This document shows, piece after piece, positions 3,004 through 16,623 of a DNA stretch of 16,623 nucleotides. This DNA is from an uncultured Helicobacteraceae bacterium (GTDB taxonomy: Bacteria > Campylobacterota > Campylobacteria > Campylobacterales > Sulfurimonadaceae). The DNA lies in NCBI GenBank assembly GCA_903903705.1, contig CAIUZU010000327.1:1-16623 (forward strand), given 5' to 3'. Within the stretch, counting starts at the first letter, position 1; every line of letters starts with the position of its first letter. The notes under the pieces are model-generated. The model did not search any database, had not been told where the DNA came from, and saw only the letters and a list, made by a program, of their open reading frames with translations. Both the position numbers and the translations under genes were made by a program.

Positions 3004-4395
3004 TTATACTGATAAATCACTATGCAGCTGCACATAATCATCAATATTTTCAAGCAATATATCTACTAGTTTCGGCTCAAAATGCTTACCTCTTTGCTCT
3101 TTGAAAAAGGCGATAACATCTTTTGTCGACCATGGTTCTTTATATACCCGTTTGGAGAGCAGAGTATCAAAAACATCGACAATCGCAACAATGCGGGCAT
3201 AGATAGTTATCTCTTCGCCCCTTAGCCCTTGCGGATAACCGGTTCCGTCATATTTTTCATGATGTTCATAAGCAATATCAGCTGCAGTTTTTAGTATCTC
3301 TCGTTTAGAATTTTTTAAAATGTTATATCCGAAAAGAGAGTGGGATTTAATAATATTAAACTCATCTGGTGTCAATTTGCCCGGTTTATTTAAAACAGCA
3401 TCGGCAATTCCGACTTTTCCAATGTCATGAAGAGGCGATGCTATCTCTATGAGTTTTATCTGCTCATCGCTCAATCCGTACTCTTTTGCGATTATTGTGC
3501 TTAATATGGCAACCCGTTTGGTATGCTGACTTGTAGAGTTTGAACGAATCTCCTCTATTTTTCCTATCGCAAGCATAGTCTCTTTTAGAGTTGATTCTAT
3601 CTCTTCATTTAAAAGTTGAAGTTGTTTATTTTTATATTTTAGTTCATTCTCTTTTTCTATAACGGTTTTGTTAAAATTATTTACGCTTAATGCAACATCT
3701 TCAAACTCTTTACTTTCATACTTATTGCTGTCTATGTTTTTATGTAAAAAATAAGCATCTTTAGTTTCATCGATAATATTTAAAAGAGGCCTGCTTATAT
3801 AACGCTCAATGACATGAAACATATTAAACACTACAACTAAAGCAAACAAAAGCAGAGCCGCAATAATCACATAACTGTTTTTTATGACAAAGTTCTGGTA
3901 TGCATCAATCTCCATCTCAATATCTACAGCGCCCAAAACCGTACCTTCTTTGACATGATGACACTGCAGACAGTCTGAATTTGCGATATAAGGAACAACC
4001 GATTTAACACTGCCTTGCATATCTCTCCACTCTACATATACCTCTTTTTTTTCTAAAATTGCTCTAAGGTTACTGTTTAGTTTCTTTTCTGACAAGGTTG
4101 ACTCGCCATACTCTTTTATGACCGCATCCCCACGAATAATTTTAATAGTTTTTATATCATGAACCGAAGATATTTCATCCAAGAAATAATCTCGTTTATC
4201 CATTATCCCGGCTTTCATGTGCGATGTAAGACCGGCTTTTATAATTTCTGAAATTGAATGGATTTTATTTTCTACTATAAACTGAAAAAAACTTCTGTAA
4301 CTTAAAAGAACTATAGAGACTATAACCAATGTAGCAACTATAAAAACCTGCAGTAATCGGGTTACGGTAATTACTTTAATGCTTCTCTTTTCCAC
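3004..4395 (-). CDS. Membrane HD-GYP protein with a haem-c-type periplasmic sensor domain
   Basis: Predicted cyclic-di-GMP phosphodiesterase of 463 aa. TM1 (about residues 13-34) and TM2 (about 174-191) flank a ~140-residue periplasmic domain, followed by a HAMP-like linker and a coiled coil (about 192-285) and a cytoplasmic HD-GYP domain. The HD-GYP signatures are complete: HDIGK with H323-D324, the HH pair at 378-379, and GTGYP at 384-388, so the protein should be able to bind metal and hydrolyse c-di-GMP. The periplasmic domain contains SDCLQCHH, a CXXCH haem-c attachment motif (C142, C145, H146), directly before GTVLGAVDIE. Such a motif next to a strand of this kind is known from haem-c sensor domains that respond to redox or small gases; the ligand here is not predictable. 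The start is GTG at 4395, with AAAAAGG 7 bases upstream. It is divergent from the hydrolase gene and probably monocistronic. Confidence 0.9.
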   Translation of the reverse strand: MEKRSIKVITVTRLLQVFIVATLVIVSIVLLSYRSFFQFIVENKIHSISEIIKAGLTSHMKAGIMDKRDYFLDEISSVHDIKTIKIIRGDAVIKEYGESTLSEKKLNSNLRAILEKKEVYVEWRDMQGSVKSVVPYIANSDCLQCHHVKEGTVLGAVDIEMEIDAYQNFVIKNSYVIIAALLLFALVVVFNMFHVIERYISRPLLNIIDETKDAYFLHKNIDSNKYESKEFEDVALSVNNFNKTVIEKENELKYKNKQLQLLNEEIESTLKETMLAIGKIEEIRSNSTSQHTKRVAILSTIIAKEYGLSDEQIKLIEIASPLHDIGKVGIADAVLNKPGKLTPDEFNIIKSHSLFGYNILKNSKREILKTAADIAYEHHEKYDGTGYPQGLRGEEITIYARIVAIVDVFDTLLSKRVYKEPWSTKDVIAFFKEQRGKHFEPKLVDILLENIDDYVQLHSDLSV

Positions 4396-5077: not shown

Positions 5078-6910
5078 ATGATACAACTAATAAATATATC
5101 AAAAAATTTCGGCAAACAAGAGCTTTTTAGCAATCTTAGTTTCAAACTAAACTCTGGCAATAAAATGGGGCTTGTAGGTCGTAACGGAAGCGGAAAGTCG
5201 ACTCTTTTTAAACTTATACTAGGTGAAGAGACACCTGATCTCGGTGAAGTTCTTATACCAAAAGGGTACAAAATAGGAACGCTAAAACAGTATTTGGTAT
5301 TTACTGAGGGCACTTTAAGAGAAGAGGCGGCACTTGCACTTGAAGAGGACATGAAGTATGATGTTTATAGAGTCGAGAAGATTCTTTTTGGTTTAGGTTT
5401 TACGCAAGATGATTTAGAGAAAGATCCGCTCTCATTTTCAGGCGGATATCAGATCCGTATAAATCTTGCAAAACTGCTTGTGACAGAACCGAATCTGCTC
5501 CTTCTCGATGAGCCGACAAACTACCTTGATATCCTTTCGCTTAGATGGCTAAAAACTTTTTTAAAGGCATTTGAGGGCGAAGTTATTTTAATCACTCACG
5601 ACCGTGATTTTATGGATGCCGTGGTAACCCACACGATGGGAATTGTACGCAAAAATCTAAGAGTTATTGCAGGAGATACTCACAAGTACTATGAACAGCT
5701 AAGATCAAGCGATGAGCTGCATGAAAAACAGAAGATTTCACAAGATAAAAAGGTAAAAGAGCTTGAAGATTTCATCGCCCGAAACAAAGCTCGTGCTTCT
5801 ACTGCGGCTTTGGCACAGTCCAAAGTAAAACAGCTGGAGAAGATGGACTTGCTTGATGATTTGGATTACGATTCAACACTGGAATTCAATTTTAACTACA
5901 AAGAGACGCCTGCAAAAGTTCTGATTGACGTTAAAAATTTGAGTTTTGGATATACACCTGAGAATATACTCTTTAAAAATATCTCATTTGTACTTGAAAA
6001 AGGGGAACGACTCGGGATTATCGGAAAAAACGGCAAAGGTAAATCAACCCTCTTAAATACTATTGCAGGCGAGCTAAAAGCAGTGGAGGGCGAAGTCCAC
6101 ATGCATCCAAGTACGGCTTTTGCACACTTTGGTCAAACAAATATTGCAAGACTGCATCCGACAAGTACTGTTTTGGATGAGATTCACTCGGCCAACACTA
6201 AGCTTTCAGCCCAGACTATCAGAGGCATAGCAGGGGCGATGATGTTTAGCGGAGACAGTGCGGACAAAAAAGTTTCGCTTCTCTCAGGTGGAGAGAAAAG
6301 CCGTGTTATGCTAGGGCAGATTTTAGCTAGGGAAGTTAATGCCCTTTTCCTTGATGAGCCGACAAACCACCTTGACATGGACTCTATCGAAGCGCTTACA
6401 AAGGCTATCGAGAACTATGACGGTTCGGTTATCGTAGTAACCCACTCCGAAGAACTTTTACGCCGTGTATGCGATAGACTTATAATCTTTACAAGAAACG
6501 GTGCAGAGTATTTTGACGGCGGTTACGACCTTTTCTTAGAGAAAATGGGCTGGGAAGAGGAAGAAGAGGATAGAGTTAAGCAAAAACCAAAAAGCTCTTT
6601 CAAAGATAACAAAAAAGCAAAAGCAGACCTTATTCGAGACAAAAATAAGATTATTTCGCCGATAAAGAAGAAGATTGAAAAGCTTGAAGTATCCATCATA
6701 AAGTCTGAAGAGACTTTGGCTTCTCATCAAAAGAAACTGCTTGAAGCCTCAAACAAGGGCGACACTTTTAAGATTATTGAGTTTTCAAAACTTGTTTCTC
6801 TTGAGCAAAAAGAGGTTGAGAAGATGTTTGAACTTTTAGAGATATTGCAGAGCGAGTTTGATGAAATCTCTCAAGATTATGATAAAAAGATAGCAGAGAT
6901 TGTGGATTAA
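5078..6910 (+). CDS. ABC-F family ATPase (Uup/YdiF-like, ribosome-associated)
   Basis: A soluble 610-aa protein with two ABC ATPase domains in tandem and no membrane segments, which defines the ABC-F class. Domain 1 has Walker A GRNGSGKST (34-42), a signature that reads SFSGGYQ (119-125), Walker B ending DEP (144-146) and the H-switch His174. Domain 2 has Walker A GKNGKGKST (316-324), canonical LSGGE (402-406), DEP (426-428) and His456. Both Walker B motifs run into the ABC-F hallmark DEPTNxLD. The interdomain linker (about 205-270) is charged and helical, as expected of the P-site tRNA-interaction motif. Residues about 490-610 form an acidic then basic coiled-coil tail like that of Uup-type members. 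ABC-F proteins act on the ribosome to relieve stalling or confer antibiotic protection; the exact subfamily cannot be fixed by eye. A SD-like AAAAGG overlaps the end of the hydrolase gene. Confidence 0.93.
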   Translation: MIQLINISKNFGKQELFSNLSFKLNSGNKMGLVGRNGSGKSTLFKLILGEETPDLGEVLIPKGYKIGTLKQYLVFTEGTLREEAALALEEDMKYDVYRVEKILFGLGFTQDDLEKDPLSFSGGYQIRINLAKLLVTEPNLLLLDEPTNYLDILSLRWLKTFLKAFEGEVILITHDRDFMDAVVTHTMGIVRKNLRVIAGDTHKYYEQLRSSDELHEKQKISQDKKVKELEDFIARNKARASTAALAQSKVKQLEKMDLLDDLDYDSTLEFNFNYKETPAKVLIDVKNLSFGYTPENILFKNISFVLEKGERLGIIGKNGKGKSTLLNTIAGELKAVEGEVHMHPSTAFAHFGQTNIARLHPTSTVLDEIHSANTKLSAQTIRGIAGAMMFSGDSADKKVSLLSGGEKSRVMLGQILAREVNALFLDEPTNHLDMDSIEALTKAIENYDGSVIVVTHSEELLRRVCDRLIIFTRNGAEYFDGGYDLFLEKMGWEEEEEDRVKQKPKSSFKDNKKAKADLIRDKNKIISPIKKKIEKLEVSIIKSEETLASHQKKLLEASNKGDTFKIIEFSKLVSLEQKEVEKMFELLEILQSEFDEISQDYDKKIAEIVD

Positions 6911-6944
6911 GCCACAGATTTTAGAGTGAACTAAAATCTGTGGT
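6911..6944. terminator. Perfect 13-bp hairpin between converging units (candidate bidirectional terminator)
   Basis: CCACAGATTTTAG (6912-6924) and its exact reverse complement CTAAAATCTGTGG (6931-6943) flank a 6-base loop; G6911/T6944 adds a possible wobble pair on the plus-strand transcript. It begins 1 base after the ABC-F stop and contains the stop codon and last five sense codons of the convergent HD-GYP gene. There is no T-run on either side, so it could instead protect 3' ends. Confidence 0.6.
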
Positions 6945-8891
6945 AACCTCGTCAATGCTCTGTGGCGGAAGCAGTTTTTCTGCATATTCCAGATATAGTC
7001 CTGAGTTGTAGAAAAACTTTACTATCTCTCTGTCAAGCTCATCGTCTTTTGCCATAAAGTACATGATCTTCATAGCCGAAGAGAGCGGATTTCCTTTTTT
7101 GTACGGTCTATCGCTTGCCGTTAAGGCTTCAAAGACATCAGCTACGGCTAAAATACGTGCTTCAAAGCTTATCTCATCTCCCTTGAGTCCCAGCGGATAC
7201 CCTTTGCCGTTGATTTTCTCATGGTGATTTCCTGAAATCTGCGGGATCTCTTTATACTTTTTAGGGAAAGGGAGTTTGTTTAAGATGTCGATGCTTATTT
7301 TTGCATGGTCGTTTATAATCTCACGCTCTTCTGTTGTGAGAGTTCCTTTTTGCACGCTTAGATTGTAGGCTTCATCCTCATTTAAAATATGGTAACTCAC
7401 ACCCTCTATTACCCAAGGCTCACTTGCGATTTTTTGGATTAGAGCTATCTGCTCATCTTTTGTAAACTCAGTCCCTTTGTTGCTTGTCTCGATGCATGCA
7501 AGGTAACTATCCAAAGTAGCAAGGCTTTGGATAAATTTATTCTCCGACTGCTCTATACACTCGGTATCTCCATCGCTTATTAATTTTATTTTTTGGTTTA
7601 AAAGTTCTACATGAAGCGCTTTTTTGATAATCTCTATGCGACCTCTAACAACTTCTATGCGATCAAAGATAGTCTCAAGTTTTGTCGATTTATCTACTAT
7701 CTGCTCAGGAGTTGCCAACTTTCCTATGTCATGCATAAGTGCGGCAAAGTTTATCTGCTTAATCTCTTGGATGCTGAAGTGCTTATCTTTGTAGGCTGTC
7801 TCATCTTTGTTTATCGCCTCGGCAATCATTACGCTCAGTTTTACCATACGCTCAATATGTCCTGCGGTATATGGAGATTTTCTACTGATGGCAAAAATAA
7901 TACTTTGTAAAAATGCCTCAAGTAGTGTTTCTAAACCTTGAATTAGAGTGGTATTGGTAATCGCAACTGCCGCTTGCGAGGCTAGGGATAGTGTGAGATC
8001 TTCATCCTCGGCGTCAAAAGCTATCGTTTCATCCGTATCACTGTCATGTTTATTTAGAAGTTGCAGTACTCCGATAATCTCAAATTCATGGTTTTTAAGC
8101 GGGATTACCAACATCGATTTTGAGCGATAACCTGTGCCTGCATCGAACTTTTTAGTTCCATCAAAAGAGAAACCTATTGCCTCATAAACATCTGGAATAT
8201 TGATAAGCCTGTCTTCAAGTGCACAGGTTGCGGCAACCATTTTTTTATTCGGAGAGCCGTCTTCAAGGTAGAGCGGAAGCGGAGGCCATGTGATAGCGCC
8301 GCTTGTTCCTCCCATTTTTATGCCCAGCGAATCGGTTTGCGCAACTTTAAAGTGCAGATGTCCCTCATCCAAAATATATAGAGTCCCTGCATCGGCGTTT
8401 GTAAGCATTTTTGCTTCGGAGACTATTATCTCCAAAAGAGCATCTAGGTTGTTTTCAGCCGAGAGGGCAGTTCCTATTTTGTTGAGCTTTTGAATCTTTT
8501 GTTGCGTCGTGTAGTGTGAAGATGTACGCTTAAGCAAGCCATTATTTAAAGAGATCTGCTCTCCGTCTTGAAGAATTTGATTTTCAGAGATTCCTAACTC
8601 TTTTAACTCAGATACGATTTGAGAGTTATAAAAAGGCTTAAGATGATTTATATAGATTTTGATATCTTTACGCTCTAGCTGTTGCAATTCTTCATGTAAA
8701 AACTGCGGAGTAAGATGCTTGCTTACTTCGGCAATTTTTGCGAACTTGTTTGGAAAAGAGACATCTATGATTAGTGCTTTAATGGAGTTATGTTTGTTTA
8801 TAAAATCCCATAATTCGCTGTTTTTAAACGTGTCGCCTGAAAATAAAATAGCGCCTTCGCTGTTTTGTATCAGATAGCCGCAACATGGCAC
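6921..8891 (-). CDS. C-terminal fragment: end of MBL domain, NKFDE-type GAF domain, HD-GYP domain (after the TGA)
   Basis: This is 656 aa from a GTG at 8891, which has no visible SD; the frame is open back to 9029. The first ~120 residues finish the MBL fold (SGDT D20, NHLKP H83), so this cannot be the natural N terminus. The GAF domain (about 130-315) has GTGYRSKSMLVIPL and then NK (280-281), F292 and DE (296-297), which fits the NK-Xn-F-X3-DE motif of cAMP/cGMP-binding GAF domains. The HD-GYP domain has HDIGK (H387, D388), an HH pair at 556-557 and GKGYP (562-566), so c-di-GMP hydrolysis is plausible. A ~115-residue, mostly helical insertion (about 401-515) separates the HD part from the GYP part, whose spacing is 55 residues in the other HD-GYP protein here. 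Expression without read-through would need internal initiation. Confidence 0.7.
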   Translation of the reverse strand: MPCCGYLIQNSEGAILFSGDTFKNSELWDFINKHNSIKALIIDVSFPNKFAKIAEVSKHLTPQFLHEELQQLERKDIKIYINHLKPFYNSQIVSELKELGISENQILQDGEQISLNNGLLKRTSSHYTTQQKIQKLNKIGTALSAENNLDALLEIIVSEAKMLTNADAGTLYILDEGHLHFKVAQTDSLGIKMGGTSGAITWPPLPLYLEDGSPNKKMVAATCALEDRLINIPDVYEAIGFSFDGTKKFDAGTGYRSKSMLVIPLKNHEFEIIGVLQLLNKHDSDTDETIAFDAEDEDLTLSLASQAAVAITNTTLIQGLETLLEAFLQSIIFAISRKSPYTAGHIERMVKLSVMIAEAINKDETAYKDKHFSIQEIKQINFAALMHDIGKLATPEQIVDKSTKLETIFDRIEVVRGRIEIIKKALHVELLNQKIKLISDGDTECIEQSENKFIQSLATLDSYLACIETSNKGTEFTKDEQIALIQKIASEPWVIEGVSYHILNEDEAYNLSVQKGTLTTEEREIINDHAKISIDILNKLPFPKKYKEIPQISGNHHEKINGKGYPLGLKGDEISFEARILAVADVFEALTASDRPYKKGNPLSSAMKIMYFMAKDDELDREIVKFFYNSGLYLEYAEKLLPPQSIDEVTTDFSSL

Positions 8892-9029
8892 GGAGTGGTT
8901 TGCAGGAATTGGAGTTAGAAAAATTCCATTTTCGATTTCATAGCGTTTATAAAATTCAAGTTCAACATAGATTACGGCAGGAGATTCGCTTTGAGTTAGA
9001 TTGATTTCACTAAAATCAGGCCAAATTTC

Positions 9030-9317
9030 TCAGTTGAAAATATGCGTTTTAAGTGCTTTTATGGTCTGCGGAAGTCCATAGAGATAAAGAGGCTCAGTAC
9101 GGTTTGCGAAGCTGTTGTCTATCAAAAAAGCACTATCTACAATGTGATCCAAATGTGCATGCGAAAAAAATATTTTGTTGATATGGCTTGCTTTTTCGCC
9201 AAGAGCATGCATGATGTTTCCTGCATCGATAAGCGTGTTCTGTGTAACTTGAATACATGTCGTAAAAGCATTCTCAGATCTGCTTCCCTGTGCTCCTAAT
9301 ATCGTAATTCCATCCAT
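9030..9317 (-). CDS. N-terminal fragment: class II cyclic-nucleotide phosphodiesterase-like MBL domain (before the TGA)
   Basis: If the TGA is real, this 95-aa peptide would be made from the ATG at 9317, which has a good SD (AAAGGA, 6 bases away). It carries the N-terminal strands of the fold and SHAHLDHI, which fits the class II PDE signature HxHLDHxxG except for the last Gly, then GLPQTIKALKTHIFN, also typical of class II PDEs such as yeast PDE1. It lacks the later metal ligands and cannot be an active enzyme by itself. Confidence 0.6.
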   Translation of the reverse strand: MDGITILGAQGSRSENAFTTCIQVTQNTLIDAGNIMHALGEKASHINKIFFSHAHLDHIVDSAFLIDNSFANRTEPLYLYGLPQTIKALKTHIFN

Positions 9318-9320
9318 TTT

Positions 9321-11537
9321 TTATCCTTTGCTTGTATGTACAAAAACACCGTTAAAATTTTGCGGCGGCATCTCTATGTAGTGTAAACATCTCTCACGGT
9401 AAATTGCGTAAATCGTCCGGTTTGTTTTATCCTCTTTTGCGTCAAGCTCTTCAAATATCTTTAAAGCCTCTTCAAACAAACCTTTTTTATAGAGTGCAAT
9501 ACCCTCATGATAGCGTTCTAGCTCTTTTTCTAGCTCCTCTTTTGAGACGTCATAAAGGGGAATCGGCATTGCTCTGTCGTAGTCATGTATCTGCCAGATT
9601 TCGATTGGTTCGCTCTTTCCTTTTACGGTAACAAGATCTAGAAAACGAAAAATATATTTACCCTCAAGCTGCTCTTTTGTGAAATTTGAAATATTGAGTT
9701 TTGAAGAGTAGTATTTACAGAGTGATTCAAGGCGAGAACCAAGGTTAATGGGGTCTCCGATAACGGTATAGTCGCTTCTGCTGCTTGAACCCATCTCTCC
9801 AACGATGGCTATACCCGTGTTGATCCCGATACCGATATCTATGATGGGGACACCTTTATTATCGGACATGGTAACGGCATTTTTAAATTCCGGAGATAGT
9901 CTAAGCTCGGCATTTAGATCTCTTAGGTGGTGCAGCTGTTCCAGTGCCGCTGATACCGCTTTATCTGCATGATTATCCACATGCAGCGGAGCATTCCAGT
10001 ATGCCATGATGGCATCGCCGATAAATTTATCTACCGTTCCGCCTGTTTTTATAATGATATCCGTCATCGGGTCCATATAGGCATTCATCAGATGAATCAA
10101 ACTCTTTGGATCTCCCATAGCTTCAGAGAGGTTGGTAAAGTTACGCACATCCGAGAAGAAGACCGTAATCTCCTTTTCTCTTCCCGAGAGAACATCGCCT
10201 TCGGTTGATAAGATGTCGTTCATAACGGCAGGGCTGACTTTACTCGCAAATTTGCCTTTAATCATCTCTTTTTGTTTGATTTCTAAAAAGTAGTTTATAG
10301 CCTGACCGAGAACAAAAAGAATATTTGCACTTAAGAGAAGAAGAAATGTATGAAATATAATTCCCTCATAAACCATAAAATAGTAGTGAGATCCGACAAT
10401 AATCGAATTTAGCAGAACAAGTGAGAGAAAACTAAAAATGGCAGAGGGAAGAAGAAGGATAGTAAAAGTCAGCAACGCCGCAATCGCAATTGCCGCCATA
10501 TCAACACCTACCGCCCAAATCGGTTTAGCGATAAAGTTTTTGTTTATAATATTATCAAGAGCGTTGGCGTGTACTTCAACCCCTGGGAAAACACTCTCAA
10601 ATGGCGTGCTTCTAAGATCTAAAAGCCCTGCTGCGGAAGTTCCAAGGAGTGCGATTTTCCCTTTTACATGTGAAACATCGGCGGTTTTATTGTAGATATC
10701 AACAGCGGAGATATAGCGGTAACTCTTACTTCCGCCTCGGTAATTAACCATCATTCGACCGAAAAAATCCGTAGGAATAGCAATGTCGCCCAACTCTATC
10801 TGCTCTATCCCTCTTTCGTCATATACGATGGAAATCTTTTTTTGATCCAGCATAATGCGTATCATCTCGAGGCTTAGGGCAGGGTAGGCAATGCCGTCAT
10901 ACTGCATAACCAAAGGGATACTGCGAACAACTCCGTCGTTGTCTGGGATAGTGTTAAAGTAGCCGCTGGAGTAGGCATTTTCTTGAATGGCTGGTATATT
11001 TAAAATGGTTCGGTATGGTTTGATGAGAAATGAATTTTCCGGTCTGTTTTTCTCAACTATGATAGCATTTGATTTTGGAGCCGCTTCAGGTGCAATTCCG
11101 TCATTTGAGAGAGCAAAAACATACCCGACTATCGTAGGCGTATCGCCTATCGTTTGGGCTAAAAGCGCATCATAATCCATAACATTTTCAGAAGGGAGTC
11201 CAAGCTTTTGAAATACTTTTTTAGGAGAGCTGTTGTCGGGTTCTGCAAAAACGATATCAAGCCCTACAATCCCGACTTCATACTCTGCAAGATTTTGCAG
11301 AAGCGTAGAAACCGTGTCTCTGCTCCAAGGCCACTGCCCGAGTGCTTTTAGACTTTTTTCATCTATATCGATTATGACAATATTTTCATCGCCTTTAACC
11401 TCGCCTCTGGCTTTAAACATAAGGTCTTTAAGCTTATGCTCAAAAGGGAGGTACAGCTCAGAAAGATGCAGATAGAGCGTCGTAGTAACTATGGCTATAA
11501 AAAGTGCGACAATAAACTGAACTAGGGTTTTGCGCAT
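9321..11537 (-). CDS. CHASE2-domain class III adenylate cyclase
   Basis: A 738-aa inner-membrane sensor cyclase predicted to make cAMP. An N-terminal TM (about 5-24) is followed by an extracytoplasmic CHASE2 domain (about 30-335, with IVIIDIDEKSLKALGQWPW, GLDIVFAEPD and FPGVEVHANALDNI as hallmarks), three clustered TMs (about 341-413) and a cytoplasmic cyclase domain (about 450-650). Catalytic residues are present: metal-binding D463 (FFSDVRNFT) and D508 (FIGDA), adenine-selecting K504 (VDKF) and T591 (DYTVIGD), and N598/R602 (INLGSRLE). Lys plus Thr is the class IIIb adenylate-type pair; family members are often bicarbonate-responsive. The C-terminal ~70 residues hold one TPR-like hairpin. 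The stop of the upstream outer-membrane gene is 1 base before the ATG and no SD is seen, so translational coupling is likely. The phosphodiesterase-like gene begins 3 bases downstream. Confidence 0.93.
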   Translation of the reverse strand: MRKTLVQFIVALFIAIVTTTLYLHLSELYLPFEHKLKDLMFKARGEVKGDENIVIIDIDEKSLKALGQWPWSRDTVSTLLQNLAEYEVGIVGLDIVFAEPDNSSPKKVFQKLGLPSENVMDYDALLAQTIGDTPTIVGYVFALSNDGIAPEAAPKSNAIIVEKNRPENSFLIKPYRTILNIPAIQENAYSSGYFNTIPDNDGVVRSIPLVMQYDGIAYPALSLEMIRIMLDQKKISIVYDERGIEQIELGDIAIPTDFFGRMMVNYRGGSKSYRYISAVDIYNKTADVSHVKGKIALLGTSAAGLLDLRSTPFESVFPGVEVHANALDNIINKNFIAKPIWAVGVDMAAIAIAALLTFTILLLPSAIFSFLSLVLLNSIIVGSHYYFMVYEGIIFHTFLLLLSANILFVLGQAINYFLEIKQKEMIKGKFASKVSPAVMNDILSTEGDVLSGREKEITVFFSDVRNFTNLSEAMGDPKSLIHLMNAYMDPMTDIIIKTGGTVDKFIGDAIMAYWNAPLHVDNHADKAVSAALEQLHHLRDLNAELRLSPEFKNAVTMSDNKGVPIIDIGIGINTGIAIVGEMGSSSRSDYTVIGDPINLGSRLESLCKYYSSKLNISNFTKEQLEGKYIFRFLDLVTVKGKSEPIEIWQIHDYDRAMPIPLYDVSKEELEKELERYHEGIALYKKGLFEEALKIFEELDAKEDKTNRTIYAIYRERCLHYIEMPPQNFNGVFVHTSKG
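9324..9329 (-). promoter_or_regulatory. Ribosome binding site of the MBL-GAF-HD-GYP gene
   Basis: AAAGGA on the minus strand, 6 bases before the ATG at 9317 and overlapping the last codons of the cyclase gene. It fixes the start of the interrupted gene upstream of the TGA. Confidence 0.7.
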
Positions 11538-11538
11538 T

Positions 11539-12834
11539 TTAAAAACTTAATATTGCATTTGCCAGAACAGTAACCTTGTCATAGTTGAACGGATCATGGT
11601 TAGAGTGATTTTTAGCATAAGAGAATGCGGTATTTAGCATTATATTATTGCTAATGCCGTATCCTAAACCAAGCTCATACTCATCTCTGGTATCTGAGCG
11701 TTTTGTCCCAAAAAGAGCATCCACCATCTCATAATCGGTAGAACTTCCTGTGTAGCCGATAGATGTTCTGATACCGTTTGTAAACTTTTTAGCTATCTCC
11801 GCACCGTAGCTATAACCACTACTCTCGATATCCGTACGATCGCTATTTATGGCAGAAGTAGATGTGTAGCTTGAGTTTAGAGAGAGCATAATCGGGTTTG
11901 TGCCAAATGCTTTTTTGTAAGAAGCGACAAATGTATTGCTTGTGCTGTCTTGCGATTCATCGTCGTCGTAATATCCTCTTTTATATATATATCCGCCATC
12001 GATTGCAGAAGTTGCATCTAGCATGTATGTACCTCTTATGCCTGAGCTTAGATTGTAGAGGTATCCCTTTTCATCCAAAAATATACGGTCATAGGTAATC
12101 GGGAAAGAGAGTCTGTAGCTGTCTTCACTCCAAGTAGGTGCCATGCTTAGCGAGAAAAGTGCCAAGTTGTTATTGCTGTACTCTTTGCTTATTTTGCTAT
12201 ATGTAACAAAACTATTATCTAGCGTCCACCCTTTTCTATCCCCAAAATCATAGCTGTGGTTAAGTACGAGTGTTGCAAAAACATTGCTGTCACTTACCTC
12301 TTCATTACCCATAATAGGGATATTAAAAGATGGGATGATAAACTCTTTGCGTCCGATGTCATTGTTTGCATTGCTGTCATACCCAGCGCCGATGATAAAT
12401 GCACCGCCGAAAGTATGGCGTTTCATCTGCTCATTAATTCTTGTTTTAAAAGCAATAGCCACATCCCGAACATTATCAGGGAGATTTTCTTTGAGTACGG
12501 TATCTAGTTCTGATTGTGCCAGCTCAAACTGCTGTGTCTCAAAGTAGAGACGTGCCAACTCCATGTGAGTTCGTGTATGAGATGGGTTTAGCATAAGAAC
12601 ACGATCAAATGCCGTAAGTGCTTCATCATACTTTTTTAGCTCTAGGGCAGAGCGACCTAAAAGAAAATTATACTCCGCATTTTCAGGCGACTTTTCACTA
12701 AGCTCTTCAAAAAGAGTATAAGATTTTTGAAAATTTTTAGCATTGTAACTTTGCTGAGCTTCTTTGTAGGTAGGTTCATTTGCAAAGAGATCTATAGCTA
12801 ACAATAATATAAACGCTATATATGAAAATTTCAT
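11539..12834 (-). CDS. SLAM-like outer-membrane protein: signal peptide, TPRs, DUF560-type beta-barrel
   Basis: A 431-aa protein. Residues 1-18 are a Sec signal peptide with probable cleavage after LFA. Residues about 20-135 form three TPR-like helical hairpins (for instance YNFLLGRSALELKKYDEALTAF). From about 140 the sequence becomes alternating, aromatic and glycine-rich strands, starting with FGGAFIIGAGYDSNANND and ending with a terminal Phe (AILSF), as in outer-membrane barrels. The TPR-plus-barrel layout and the GYDSNANN-type strand match SLAM/DUF560 proteins, the translocons of type XI secretion, which move TbpB-type barrel cargo across the outer membrane. It is somewhat short for SLAM (about 480-500 aa). 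Its ATG overlaps the TGA of the upstream FecR/TbpB-like gene by 4 bases, with AAGGAG 10 bases upstream, so the two are translationally coupled. A generic TPR porin is the alternative. Confidence 0.75.
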   Translation of the reverse strand: MKFSYIAFILLLAIDLFANEPTYKEAQQSYNAKNFQKSYTLFEELSEKSPENAEYNFLLGRSALELKKYDEALTAFDRVLMLNPSHTRTHMELARLYFETQQFELAQSELDTVLKENLPDNVRDVAIAFKTRINEQMKRHTFGGAFIIGAGYDSNANNDIGRKEFIIPSFNIPIMGNEEVSDSNVFATLVLNHSYDFGDRKGWTLDNSFVTYSKISKEYSNNNLALFSLSMAPTWSEDSYRLSFPITYDRIFLDEKGYLYNLSSGIRGTYMLDATSAIDGGYIYKRGYYDDDESQDSTSNTFVASYKKAFGTNPIMLSLNSSYTSTSAINSDRTDIESSGYSYGAEIAKKFTNGIRTSIGYTGSSTDYEMVDALFGTKRSDTRDEYELGLGYGISNNIMLNTAFSYAKNHSNHDPFNYDKVTVLANAILSF

Positions 12835-15800
12835 GGTATTACTACTCCTTGTTTAGTTGCTTTAAATACGCCAGTTCCGCTTAGGGTATTGCTGTTAAAT
12901 GTTCCCTTCCAAGCACCGCCTATAGCCTCTGCATTTGGTCCGAAGAATTTGCCTTTAAGATCTAAAGCCGTGCTGCCATCGGCTGCAGAACCGGAAAATG
13001 TATTTCCCGATATTGTACTTGCAGATGTTACAAGTGTCTCAGTTATAGATACCGAACCTAAATCCATAGTATTAAATTTCATCTCTGTAATCGTTATAGG
13101 ATTGGCTGCTCCGAATTCTATACTTGCTTTAAAAGAGTTATCTATATCCAGTTTTATAGGAGTAGCCAATGTTCCGTTTGTTACAGTGCCTAAAACATGA
13201 CCGTTGTAGTTATATACTGTATTTACAGGTATCGTTACATTGATATCAATAGGGGATTCGTATCCTGCAACCCAATATCCTTGTGCGTAAGAGTCGCCTG
13301 CCGTAGGTGCTTTTTCCGTCGCAACCCAATAACCCCATGAGGTGTAGTCATTTTGATAACCGTAGATGCCATCTATTACATTATCGGGCAGTGTTGCCAT
13401 AGCAAAATCATACGTTTTGCCATTTATAGTTTTACTCTCAATAATCATAGCTTGCATATCTTCCCCTAAGAAAGATGCACTCGGTATAGCTTCAGCGGCA
13501 TCTGTTTGAGTTAACCCAGCCATAGAGAGAGGTGTAGCAATTGTTAAATTATTCTCTGCCGATGTAATCGTTAATATTCCTCTTCCACCGCTGGCATTTG
13601 TATCAAAAGCGGAAATATCTCCCATCCAAACATTTATAGATGTATCTTCTCCTATCATGAAACCGGACATTGAGCCTGTAGCAAAAGAGGTGTTGTAATC
13701 TAAAGATGTAAAAAGAGATGTATCGCTGCTATCGGCTACTTTTTTCATTAAGTTAATATTTGCCGCTTCGGATGTAGTTGCATTGATCTCTTCATGTGCT
13801 ATCCAATTGTATTTGGTATCTGTATCACTCTGATTATTGTCTAGTCCTCCGTTATTCGCATTGATAAATTGAGAGTTTTCATTAAATAGATAAAAACCGT
13901 GAGTAGTTCCATAGTCCGTAGTGGAGTCTGTTGTAATGACGCCGCCTATGGTATCAAAATGTTTTAAGATGATTTTATTGCTTGCATTTGTGTCTGAAGA
14001 TACGACTCTACCTGTTGTTATAGACCCCGTGAAATAATTTTTAACAATAGATAAGTTAGAATCTTTTTCTTGTAAAACATCAAAATAACTCTCCATCATT
14101 ATGCCATCGCTATCTGTAGGAAATTTGATAAATGCTCCGGTTTTAGATGTTTTGCTAAAATTTCGGTCATTTAAATCTGATGTATAATCGCTATATAGAT
14201 AAATAAGATTATTTACGGGTTTATCATCCCATACCGCTTTTTCTATAGCCAGTTTGCGATAATCACTTCCTGTTTGAGGAAGAATACTTATATTTAAACT
14301 ATTAGGTGTAATGCCCTCGCTATAGCTTATACTATTTCCACTCGCAGGTGTCGGAAGAGTATCATTATCTAAAAGCGGATTGTCTATCGGACCTGAGAAA
14401 TATGTACCGTTTTGTAAGTGAAAATTTACATATAGATTTAGAGGATTGCATGTAAGAGGATTTACTAGTTTGCCGTTTCTTGAATCTGTTATCAATGTAC
14501 CATTTTCATCTATTTTATAGAAGAGATAGACATTTTGTTGATTTTCTTCAAGAGCGTGATAGTAGACAATATTAGATCCATCGACAGTTACATAGTCTGT
14601 ATTAATCTTTAAAAAGTGATTATTTACCCAGTTAAACATATCATTAGAAATGCTGTTGAAATTTTTGATGCTGTACATCTCTTTATATCCACTTTTATTT
14701 ATAGTAAAAATAGGATAAGCAGCACCCTGACTAGATGTTTTCATAAAAGGCACATACTCACCTGAAGTGCTAACCGCATCCGTTATTGGCAGATCTCCGT
14801 AGACATTAACGGTAGTAGAGAAATAAGGATTGGTTTTATCGTACGTAAAATACCATTTGCCACCATCTGCAAGAATCCCGTAGTTTTTGAGACTTTGATT
14901 TGCATCAGGTGTGCCGTGGATATAGAAATTCATATATGGATTTGACTGATTGCTAATTAGTGTAAGTATGGAAGATTGGTATGTTGTGTTAGAATCTGAG
15001 ATATCGTTGTAGAGTGCCGCAAAGTTTTTTGAAATAAACCATTCAGACTCTTGATAATGATACTCTTGAAAGAGTTTTAAACTAGAAAGATATTCCCATT
15101 TTCTAGTATCATATTGACTGTTCTGCTCATATTTTATAGCATACGAATATTCATTCATAACACTCTTAACGCCGGTTACCAATTCATAATGAGTCGATGC
15201 GATTGGATTAAGCCCTGAAACACCGCTTAAGTATCCGCTTGCATTTGAGTCGGTAGGAAAAGATTTAAACAAAACAGGATTATATGATTGTGTTAAATCC
15301 TTAACATACATTGTCTGAGTACCGCTAAGTTCATTGATATAGCTGAAATTTCCATCTGTAGAAGTAACTACATACGCATTGTCGCTTGATTTCCATAATC
15401 CGTTTGTTGCATCAAAAACCATTGTCTTTGTTGTTTCATCAGGAAAAAAAACTGTTGTGTTTGCACCGTCTGAAGCAGACATATCTGAAAATAGTGTTGT
15501 ATATGATGTTGTTTGAGGCGGTATATCAACACAATTGGGATAAGTTCCCGTTGTTCCGCTAGGGCAGCTTTGTACAACTTCCCCGCCACCACCACCGCCG
15601 CCGCTTGGAGGAGGAGTAATCGGATCAGTCGGTGGAATCACGGGAACAGTCGGCGGAGGAGTGACCGGATCAGTGGGTGGCGGGGTAATCGGATTAGTTG
15701 GTGGAGTCACCGGATCAGTCGGAGGAGTGATAGGACTCCCTGAAGCAATCTGCTGTTGTATCTCTTCAACCGGAACACCCAACTCACCAGCCACATCTTG

Positions 15801-16623
15801 AACAACAACTCCTTGAGTTAAATTTTGTAGATTTGTTTGCTGTGCAGCCGTTGCTGCAGTCGGCACAAATGTTTGAGGTTGAGGTATATATGGTGCCGGC
15901 GCAGGAGGTGCAGGAGGTGCTTCATCCATCCTCATAGACATAGGCGCGTTCGGAGCGTTATCGCTGCTTGAAGGAGCTGTTGTAGATGCGGTACCGCTAT
16001 TTTCTTGTGTTGTAGTGCCGCTGTTGCTTTGGCTTTGAGAAGACGTACCGCTTTGCGTGGTTTGAGAGCTTGAACCTTCGGCAGGCGCAGGAGGCGGAGG
16101 TGTTCCTAAGCTTTGGTTAAATTGTTGAATATCTTGTGGCGTTGTTTGCCTTGGAGGGGCAGGTGGAGCATTTAAAGGAACAACGGTCATTGTTCCTGTC
16201 GGAAGATTAACCGTAATTCCTGTTTGACGGGATGTAGCCGTAATCTTTCCGCCTAAACAAAAGATAGTATCGGGAGCCGATGAAGATGGCGGTGGTACAA
16301 CACCGCCTATAACAGTTCCCCTGATACCGATTGTAGCCGTTTTGGTTTCAAGGGTAAAGTTCTCAGGTGCCGTTTTGCCGATTTGTCCCGTAATAGTTTT
16401 AAAAACACCTTGATTAAATTTGAATTTTGCTTTAGGTTTTGTAGTTTCGCTGAGATACTCTTCGACCTTAAATTCGCTCTCGCTTCCTAACGTAATAACA
16501 GTTTTATCTTCAAAGATAAGCTGTATCTGAGCATCTTTAGAGGTGCGAATAGTATCTTTCTCTTCGATACTTACACCATTTTTTAATCCCAACTTCTGCC
16601 CTGATCTTTCTAAGAAAGCTTCA
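12831..16623 (-). CDS. Giant FecR-domain surface protein with a TbpB-like C-terminal barrel (5' end outside window)
   Basis: The frame is open to the right edge, so the protein exceeds the 1253 residues counted from the TTG at 16592; that TTG is not a credible start because the FecR fold begins before it (EAFLERSGQKLGLKNG). Residues about 1-140 (counted from the TTG) are a FecR domain, with DTIRTSKDAQIQLIFED and the hallmark ATIGIRGTV. Residues about 141-330 are rich in Pro, Ser, Thr and Gln, end in repeated PPT-D/N-P-V/I-T units and a run of seven Gly. A CPSGTTGTYPNC element follows (about 343-354), then ~750 residues of beta-rich sequence of no recognised family. The last ~150 residues resemble the TbpB/FhbP-type lipoprotein barrel: FSG-rich strands, then GKFFGPNAEAIGGAWKG (1214-1230). 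It overlaps the SLAM-like gene by 4 bases, making it the obvious cargo candidate. Signal peptide or lipobox would lie outside the window. Confidence 0.8.
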   Translation of the reverse strand, partial: EAFLERSGQKLGLKNGVSIEEKDTIRTSKDAQIQLIFEDKTVITLGSESEFKVEEYLSETTKPKAKFKFNQGVFKTITGQIGKTAPENFTLETKTATIGIRGTVIGGVVPPPSSSAPDTIFCLGGKITATSRQTGITVNLPTGTMTVVPLNAPPAPPRQTTPQDIQQFNQSLGTPPPPAPAEGSSSQTTQSGTSSQSQSNSGTTTQENSGTASTTAPSSSDNAPNAPMSMRMDEAPPAPPAPAPYIPQPQTFVPTAATAAQQTNLQNLTQGVVVQDVAGELGVPVEEIQQQIASGSPITPPTDPVTPPTNPITPPPTDPVTPPPTVPVIPPTDPITPPPSGGGGGGGEVVQSCPSGTTGTYPNCVDIPPQTTSYTTLFSDMSASDGANTTVFFPDETTKTMVFDATNGLWKSSDNAYVVTSTDGNFSYINELSGTQTMYVKDLTQSYNPVLFKSFPTDSNASGYLSGVSGLNPIASTHYELVTGVKSVMNEYSYAIKYEQNSQYDTRKWEYLSSLKLFQEYHYQESEWFISKNFAALYNDISDSNTTYQSSILTLISNQSNPYMNFYIHGTPDANQSLKNYGILADGGKWYFTYDKTNPYFSTTVNVYGDLPITDAVSTSGEYVPFMKTSSQGAAYPIFTINKSGYKEMYSIKNFNSISNDMFNWVNNHFLKINTDYVTVDGSNIVYYHALEENQQNVYLFYKIDENGTLITDSRNGKLVNPLTCNPLNLYVNFHLQNGTYFSGPIDNPLLDNDTLPTPASGNSISYSEGITPNSLNISILPQTGSDYRKLAIEKAVWDDKPVNNLIYLYSDYTSDLNDRNFSKTSKTGAFIKFPTDSDGIMMESYFDVLQEKDSNLSIVKNYFTGSITTGRVVSSDTNASNKIILKHFDTIGGVITTDSTTDYGTTHGFYLFNENSQFINANNGGLDNNQSDTDTKYNWIAHEEINATTSEAANINLMKKVADSSDTSLFTSLDYNTSFATGSMSGFMIGEDTSINVWMGDISAFDTNASGGRGILTITSAENNLTIATPLSMAGLTQTDAAEAIPSASFLGEDMQAMIIESKTINGKTYDFAMATLPDNVIDGIYGYQNDYTSWGYWVATEKAPTAGDSYAQGYWVAGYESPIDINVTIPVNTVYNYNGHVLGTVTNGTLATPIKLDIDNSFKASIEFGAANPITITEMKFNTMDLGSVSITETLVTSASTISGNTFSGSAADGSTALDLKGKFFGPNAEAIGGAWKGTFNSNTLSGTGVFKATKQGVVIP
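12845..12850 (-). promoter_or_regulatory. Strong ribosome binding site of the SLAM-like gene, inside the preceding gene
   Basis: AAGGAG on the minus strand lies 10 bases before the ATG at 12834, inside the last codons of the FecR/TbpB-like gene. With the ATGA overlap at 12834-12831 it points to coupled synthesis of the two proteins. Confidence 0.6.
15582..15734 (-). repeat. Pro/Thr repeat linker and poly-Gly run inside the FecR/TbpB-like gene
   Basis: About six imperfect repeats of a PPTDPVTPP-type unit (residues 287-329 from the TTG at 16592) are followed by seven consecutive glycines (331-337). This is a stiff extracellular spacer of the kind found in surface proteins. The DNA copies differ by base changes as well as by whole codons, so the array is not freshly duplicated, but it could vary in length between strains. 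Confidence 0.8.

Follow-up and report, generated by a model that had tools for sequence, protein, structure and literature searches.

In several species of Campylobacterota, the genes for a CHASE2 adenylate cyclase, a cyclic AMP (cAMP) phosphodiesterase (PDE), a FecR outer-membrane protein and a tetratricopeptide repeat (TPR) protein lie clustered, as stated in the section of a 2022 mBio paper that treats this cluster (PMC9239204). The same four parts adjoin one another in the DNA considered here, a stretch of 16,623 nucleotides from an uncultured Helicobacteraceae bacterium that is called the window below. Thus, the cluster cannot be called undescribed, as a first-pass annotation of this DNA had done; it is genuine and recurs, a signalling module whose outline is already known. 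The section cited does not name the family of the barrel, the TbpB-like end of the FecR protein or the fused HD-GYP domain, and the present analysis shows that the order and membership of the cluster vary. Another part of that paper reports that extracytoplasmic function (ECF) sensors cluster with enzymes of cAMP or cyclic di-GMP (c-di-GMP), and cites the study of NsrA as reference 52. What seems to be new here is the reading of the TPR protein as a relative of type 11 secretion, the relation of the cluster to a split NsrA and the dual nature of the PDE. We judge it somewhat better than an even bet that the four genes encode a trans-envelope module, in which an export or surface sensor feeds cAMP production, with cross-talk to c-di-GMP.

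The NsrA-CyaK pair of Sinorhizobium meliloti is built along similar lines. The gene that adjoins cyaK (locus L130, one-base overlap) is probably nsrA, judging from its position. Its product of 1190 amino acids has a FecR domain at residues 66-160, TPRs between 378 and 587 and, at 1103-1167, a weak match to a barrel. Since the FecR domain precedes the TPRs, it should be periplasmic. Like the window, this locus has FecR, TPRs and a barrel beside a CHASE2 cyclase, and its protein resembles a fusion of the products of genes 1 and 2 of the window; unlike the window, it lacks a TbpB match, and no PDE gene is listed beside it. The passages on NsrA in PMC7529298 place its barrel at residues 600-1200, and there and in the corresponding part of PMC13001267 this outer-membrane partner is needed for signalling through CyaK.

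Another comparison is with type 11 secretion systems (T11SS). Slam outer-membrane proteins combine N-terminal TPRs with a 14-stranded barrel. In the relevant part of PMC12282271, as in the window, a gene for TPRs and a barrel lies beside one for a protein with a C-terminal TbpB-like domain, and unlipidated Slam cargo is described there as well. FecR and CHASE2 are absent from the main texts of PMC12282271, PMC8406197 and PMC5449769, the last of which, in its portion on Campylobacter, gives no Slam-related sequence for that genus. FecR joined with "type 11 secretion" was not found in the literature searched; one paper that contains FecR, Slam and TbpB concerns, in the part at hand, a siderophore of Lysobacter. 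Unlike Slam cargo, the candidate cargo of this cluster has an N-terminal FecR domain, shows no lipobox by pattern and neighbours a receptor cyclase.

In cell-surface signalling of the FecI-FecR-FecA type, the FecR domain relays the state of the outer membrane. The window shares this domain, which follows a signal-peptide-like N-terminus in the orthologue from locus L044. Nevertheless, the eight window frames covered by the domain scan (below-cut-off matches were listed up to an expectation value, E, of 0.01) hold neither a FecI sigma factor nor a TonB receptor, the adjoining genes of an ECF anti-sigma FecR, the contig ending inside gene 1. The BiofilmReg operon of Burkholderia also has a FecR protein adjoining a CHASE2 sensor; as presented in the pertinent part of PMC5192318, it differs in having a LysM-FecR protein, a histidine kinase and a response regulator, with no barrel or cyclase. 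The biofilm link made there concerns this different operon, with its CHASE2 histidine kinase, and the natural ligand of CHASE2 is described in the same part as unknown.

The four genes of the window

The window is one entire contig (C327 of 429) of an assembly that is 79% complete. Its four genes lie on the minus strand at 16622-12831, 12834-11539, 11537-9321 and from 9317, and the junctions of -4, +1 and +3 bases given in the first-pass annotation were confirmed when recomputed from these coordinates. The parts and junctions of the proposed four-gene cluster are real, with the qualifications that gene 1 is incomplete and that the frame of gene 4 is interrupted. Because the contig ends inside gene 1, the start of this gene and the head of the operon are not visible. 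The proposal of one transcription unit draws on the close spacing as its one basis; a scan of both strands was uninformative, with promoter-like sites (29 against 26.7 expected) and terminator-like sites (7 against 7.6) at chance level, and an Rfam search gave no match.

Comparisons were made across 119 genomes, the source genome counted among them, and across sets of loci annotated by profiles grown from the window proteins. The first set (the window and L031-L109, 80 loci) holds 82 of the 98 CHASE2 places found in the genome survey; 7 of the 16 places outside it are strong (E 2e-42 to 1e-37). Twenty extra loci (L110-L129) represent 21 of the 40 FecR places that have no CHASE2 within 6 kb on their own contig. 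Since contig ends cut some loci, neighbour counts in the 80 loci are lower bounds. Loci from named records, finally, are the best 80 of at least 591 stretches (at least 584 confirmed), and all counts for named loci refer to these best 80.

Gene 1 (12831..16622, minus strand; 1263 amino acids visible, start missing) encodes a FecR domain (16302..16556, minus strand; profile match, E 1.5e-11 to 2.6e-10), a Pro/Thr-rich spacer with up to 20 prolines per 40 residues (approximately 15590..15730, minus strand), a long variable region and a C-terminal TbpB_B_D-like domain of the type 11 secretion cargo type (12852..13232, minus strand; E 1.6e-10, above cut-off). It also matches the NCBIfam model slam_lipo (E 2.3e-7), below that model's cut-off. 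The L044 orthologue has 1248 amino acids, and its signal-peptide-like N-terminus is hydrophobic and without a lipobox by pattern. In the window and L031-L129, a TbpB-like end is present in 29 of the 44 FecR proteins adjacent to a barrel against 3 of 38 others (p 6e-8); the corresponding counts for named loci are 3/11 and 0/23 (p 0.03). FecR proteins range in size from 139 to over 2500 amino acids. In the predicted model of a FecR-TbpB protein from L141, the FecR part alone is usable, and residues 218-393 have a predicted local distance difference test score (pLDDT) below 50.

Some large FecR proteins were encountered in other settings. For instance, a FecR/TbpB-like protein of at least 2569 amino acids (open frame 3753) adjoins a barrel and a CHASE2-cyclase in L069 (genome G009). 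In Bradyrhizobium, FecR proteins of 1781 and 1382 amino acids (L159 and L179) with cadherin, LamG or Ig-like domains are encoded immediately upstream of CHASE2-cyclases and appear to be adhesin-like surface proteins. Near these genes, one ABC exporter-type protein was found in L179 and no exporter in the scanned frames of L159.

Gene 2 (11539..12834, minus strand) shows TPR matches and weak matches, below cut-off, to the barrel families OMP_b-brl and BBP2_2. Its predicted model (mean pLDDT 85.1) contains eight helices and, by our own count, 14 strands, and so has the N-terminal TPRs and the 14-stranded outer-membrane barrel of the Slam architecture. Within its family of 31 members, SlipAM is matched by 7 (best 5.1e-14) and TPR_Slam by 8, and the matching barrel genes of genomes G061 and G090 reach SlipAM scores of 29.4 and 33 bits. 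When the 119 genomes were searched for SlipAM, 21 places in 20 of them matched, with FecR within 5 kb at 20 of the 21; the sole place without FecR (G085) adjoins a CHASE2-cyclase. Gene 2 appears to encode a divergent member of the Slam/type 11 secretion barrels. The earlier suggestion of a putative translocon agrees with this: the barrel probably exports the FecR/TbpB-like protein, as suggested by the SlipAM matches in its family and by the TbpB-like cargo end.

Gene 3 (9321..11537, minus strand) joins a CHASE2 domain (10467-11480; E 3.9e-63) to a class III cyclase domain (about 9588-10181; Guanylate_cyc, E 7.9e-19). Residues D463, K504, D508, N598 and R602, presumably the metal-binding Asp pair and the Lys, Asn and Arg of such cyclases, are invariant in 9 aligned sequences, as expected of a class III enzyme. 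Compared with solved structures, CHASE2 gave no match at E 0.01. The output attached to this sensor varies, as CHASE2 proteins beside FecR end in a cyclase, in HD-GYP (L076, L086) or in PAS-SpoIIE (L077); 7 of the 8 CHASE2-HD-GYP proteins are accompanied by FecR.

Gene 4 (6921..9317, minus strand) has the domains of a class II cAMP PDE of the metallo-beta-lactamase (MBL) fold, a GAF domain and an HD-GYP domain (approximately 7023..7904, minus strand) with HDIGK and HHExxxGxGYP motifs. It is not the single open frame first assumed, being broken in the assembly by an in-frame TGA (9030..9032, minus strand); the first piece (9317-9030) ends at this stop, and the listed frame restarts at 8891. The domains matched over both pieces are PDEase_II (E 3e-9), GAF (E 3.5e-12) and HD_5 (E 1e-39), so that both the PDEase_II match and the HxHxDH motif of a class II PDE are present in this interrupted frame. 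All 11 aligned relatives with the same domain order are open at the TGA position. These 11 keep the HxHxDH, HD(I/V)GK and HHExxxGxGYP motifs, as do the two window pieces that flank the stop, and HD-GYP motifs are found in all 12 aligned sequences (HDIGK in 10, HDVGK in 2). Over the 700 codons after the stop, comparison with L044, which has the same order and strand, gives 79% amino-acid identity, a nonsynonymous divergence (dN) of 0.15 and saturated synonymous change; therefore, either this frame stayed under selection until a short time ago or the stop arose as an error of assembly. Recoding of the TGA as selenocysteine or Trp was rejected, as the residue at this site varies among the 11 relatives and is Cys or Trp in none of them.

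In the window and L031-L129, the PDE takes the form MBL-GAF-HD-GYP in 12 frames (the second piece of the window included) and GAF-HD-GYP-MBL in 12, while separate genes account for 10 MBL frames (one of them the first piece of the window) and 5 GAF-HD-GYP frames. That the MBL and HD-GYP parts are fused in either order is an argument for a coupled removal of cAMP and c-di-GMP. The NKFDE motif marks cAMP-binding GAF domains; as a sign that the GAF domain here binds cAMP, it was set aside as a weak lead in the window's branch, being present in 7 of 29 members against 13 of 609 frames of at least 300 amino acids (some proteins are shared). The source genome has one cyclic nucleotide-binding protein, of 604 amino acids and not CRP-like by eye. 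All 10 chosen relatives carry 3 to 6 such places, and the scarcity of cAMP receptors in the source genome may therefore be due to incompleteness.

Recurrence and co-variation of the parts

Across the 119 genomes, CHASE2 is present in 65, FecR in 61 and both in 58 (Fisher p 4e-22), and 65 of the 105 FecR places are within 6 kb of CHASE2. Within the same distance of the 64 CHASE2-cyclases in the 80 loci, FecR was found at 45, a PDE part at 32, FecR with a barrel at 26 and all four parts at 13. The parts thus co-occur, but not as a fixed four-gene operon: 13 of the 64 cyclases lack every partner within 6 kb (some loci being cut by contig ends), and the order and strand of the window recur in L032 and L044 alone among L031-L129. 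A compact form without the barrel, in which a short FecR gene accompanies the cyclase and GAF-HD-GYP and MBL parts, fused or split, is found in L091-L096, L098-L100 and L106.

Surface pairs and cyclases at unrelated loci, which the first-pass annotation took as evidence against its operon, do occur in part. A surface pair with no CHASE2 in view was found in 14 stretches (L111, L113-L120, L123-L126, L128). Among these, contig ends truncate L111 and L113, and a CHASE2 is located 28 kb from L120 and 16 kb from L124. In genome G072, a cyclase with a GAF-HD-GYP gene (L061) and a surface pair (L125) are on different contigs. For a lone cyclase, linkage in trans could be served by a surface pair elsewhere in G009, G036, G041, G043, G066, G075, G091 and G094, and no complete surface pair was seen elsewhere in the genome in G008, G078, G085 and G102. 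G040 was dropped as a FecR genome without CHASE2, because its FecR gene runs into a contig end. Two surface-pair loci have large neighbours: in L123 (442-7023), the gene for a protein of 2193 amino acids, rich in RCC1-type repeats, shares 4 bases with the FecR gene, and in L118 the pair lies beside a 1750-residue protein with weak Ig-like matches.

Among the named loci, FecR is found within 8 kb in 34, a barrel in 13 and an MBL gene in 18, and 25 of the 34 FecR genes lie within 200 bases. The FecR carriers among the matches listed include Alpha-, Beta- and Gammaproteobacteria and three single records whose titles name Elusimicrobia, Omnitrophus and Myxococcales, respectively. Four of five annotated plasmid regions label FecR directly beside the cyclase, and in the fifth (L132) a TPR gene stands between; a sixth region carries no annotation. 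In L131 and L132 (Shinella and Ensifer plasmids), the neighbours of FecR and a CHASE2-cyclase are a cyclic nucleotide-binding protein and NHLP-type export genes, a second kind of exporter in this context.

Pairwise distances over 79 loci, which are related and hence not independent, correlate more strongly between FecR and CHASE2 (r 0.85) than between FecR and the cyclase domain (r 0.61), even though these two domains belong to a single protein, and the partial correlations are 0.77 and 0.24. The same order was obtained in all five sets, whether raw, by rank or with CHASE2 cut to 90 columns. Barrel distances show a weaker preference for CHASE2 (0.36 against 0.22), and FecR and barrel distances also correlate (r 0.82). 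This co-variation suggests that FecR and CHASE2 may be in direct contact. CHASE2 is probably the reader of the surface protein, as had been proposed.

Proposed mechanism and rival explanations

In the trans-envelope module, the FecR/TbpB-like protein would reach the periplasm by Sec, and its TbpB-like C-terminus would engage the Slam/T11SS-like TPR-barrel for export. The N-terminal FecR domain would remain or be retained in the periplasm and contact CHASE2 there, so that ligand contact or the state of export would set the inner-membrane cyclase, whose class III domain, to judge strongly from its family, should produce cAMP. The neighbouring enzyme, again from its families, would degrade cAMP through the MBL domain and c-di-GMP through HD-GYP, linking both messengers. 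Such a module would work in the manner of NsrA-CyaK, except that cargo and barrel would be separate proteins in place of one outer-membrane part. If so, the CHASE2 sensor domain would gain a concrete partner; type 11 secretion, associated with nutrient binding and adhesion, would take on a signalling role and would include Campylobacterota; and a fused cAMP/c-di-GMP PDE beside a cyclase would make cross-talk directly testable. A bolder version, which we regard as doubtful, has the T11SS turned into a signalling device, with FecR held in the periplasm on the Pro-rich tether through or at the barrel, the C-terminus outside and FecR itself the direct ligand of CHASE2. In that case, the level of cAMP and, via the fused PDE, that of c-di-GMP would be set by export of the surface protein or by a pull on it.

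Several observations weigh against the trans-envelope module. Gene 2 itself scores 20.4 bits against SlipAM (PF04575), 1.6 below the cut-off of 22, and the eight-frame scan listed no SlipAM match for it. A pattern search for the lipobox of Slam-dependent surface lipoproteins, over the first 40 residues of 122 FecR frames, gave no hit (start codons were uncurated, and the window start is missing). A TbpB-like end is lacking in 15 of the 44 barrel-adjacent FecR proteins, as in the cyaK-adjacent protein, and a surface cargo would have to keep its FecR domain in the periplasm. The preference of FecR for CHASE2 is also not exclusive, since in the 79-locus set both partial correlations exceed all 500 shuffles. 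In addition, control shrinks the signal, to 0.28 against 0.23 by rank in the 26 relatives with a barrel; in 36 named loci, the values are 0.55 and 0.48 once CHASE2 is trimmed to 90 columns. Besides the cyclases without partners, 31 of the 80 named loci show no FecR, no barrel and no MBL gene within 8 kb, although contig ends truncate some of them. The closest named relative among the matches listed (L136, 67%) has the cyclase and a whole PDE gene, with neither FecR nor barrel in 7.8 kb upstream. Conversely, FecR stands beside a non-CHASE2 protein in L128 (G032, a complete genome without a CHASE2 match), where barrel and FecR are followed after 18 bases by the gene of a HAMP-GGDEF-EAL protein whose CHASE8 match is weak and under the cut-off (7021-9906).

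In a rival explanation, which we hold to be rather unlikely, the barrel would be an outer-membrane receptor like NsrA and FecR a periplasmic relay, with no export. The relevant passages of PMC7529298 call NsrA a receptor for a protein signal, the cyaK-adjacent gene has FecR and TPRs in one chain without a TbpB match, short FecR forms exist without a barrel (L091-L101, L103, L106), and the correlation of FecR with barrel distances would fit as well. Nevertheless, a receptor leaves the SlipAM similarity and the TbpB-like cargo end unexplained, and it sits poorly with the size range of FecR proteins and their adhesin-like domains in Bradyrhizobium. It is very improbable that the TPR-barrel is an exopolysaccharide porin of the BcsC/PelB/PgaA type and the module a control on polymer export. 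A fold search with the barrel model did return BcsC at rank 1 and PelB at rank 10, but ranks 2-9 are CymA, family members match SlipAM and no polymer-synthesis gene was found among the eight scanned window frames. BcsC-type barrels, moreover, have 16 strands, against 14 in the model.

That two independent modules are adjacent by chance is scarcely credible. Surface pairs and cyclases do lie apart in several genomes, and L136 has a cyclase and PDE without an adjoining surface pair; set against this are the joint occurrence of CHASE2 and FecR in the genome survey, the FecR genes close to the named cyclases and the co-variation of FecR with CHASE2. The state of the module in the source strain is a different matter, and here decay is a tentative but real possibility: gene 4 would be truly broken and would no longer remove cAMP and c-di-GMP. 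None of the 11 compared relatives has a stop where the TGA stands, whereas the frame after it is kept relative to L044, and a recent mutation or an assembly error fits equally.

The remainder of the window includes the frames 1563-2951 and 5078-6910, which lay outside the domain scan and by eye encode a tRNA synthetase and an ABC-F protein. A second HD-GYP protein (3004-4395, minus strand; 463 amino acids), outside the operon, has an N-terminal membrane part and a CxxCH motif that is possibly haem-binding.

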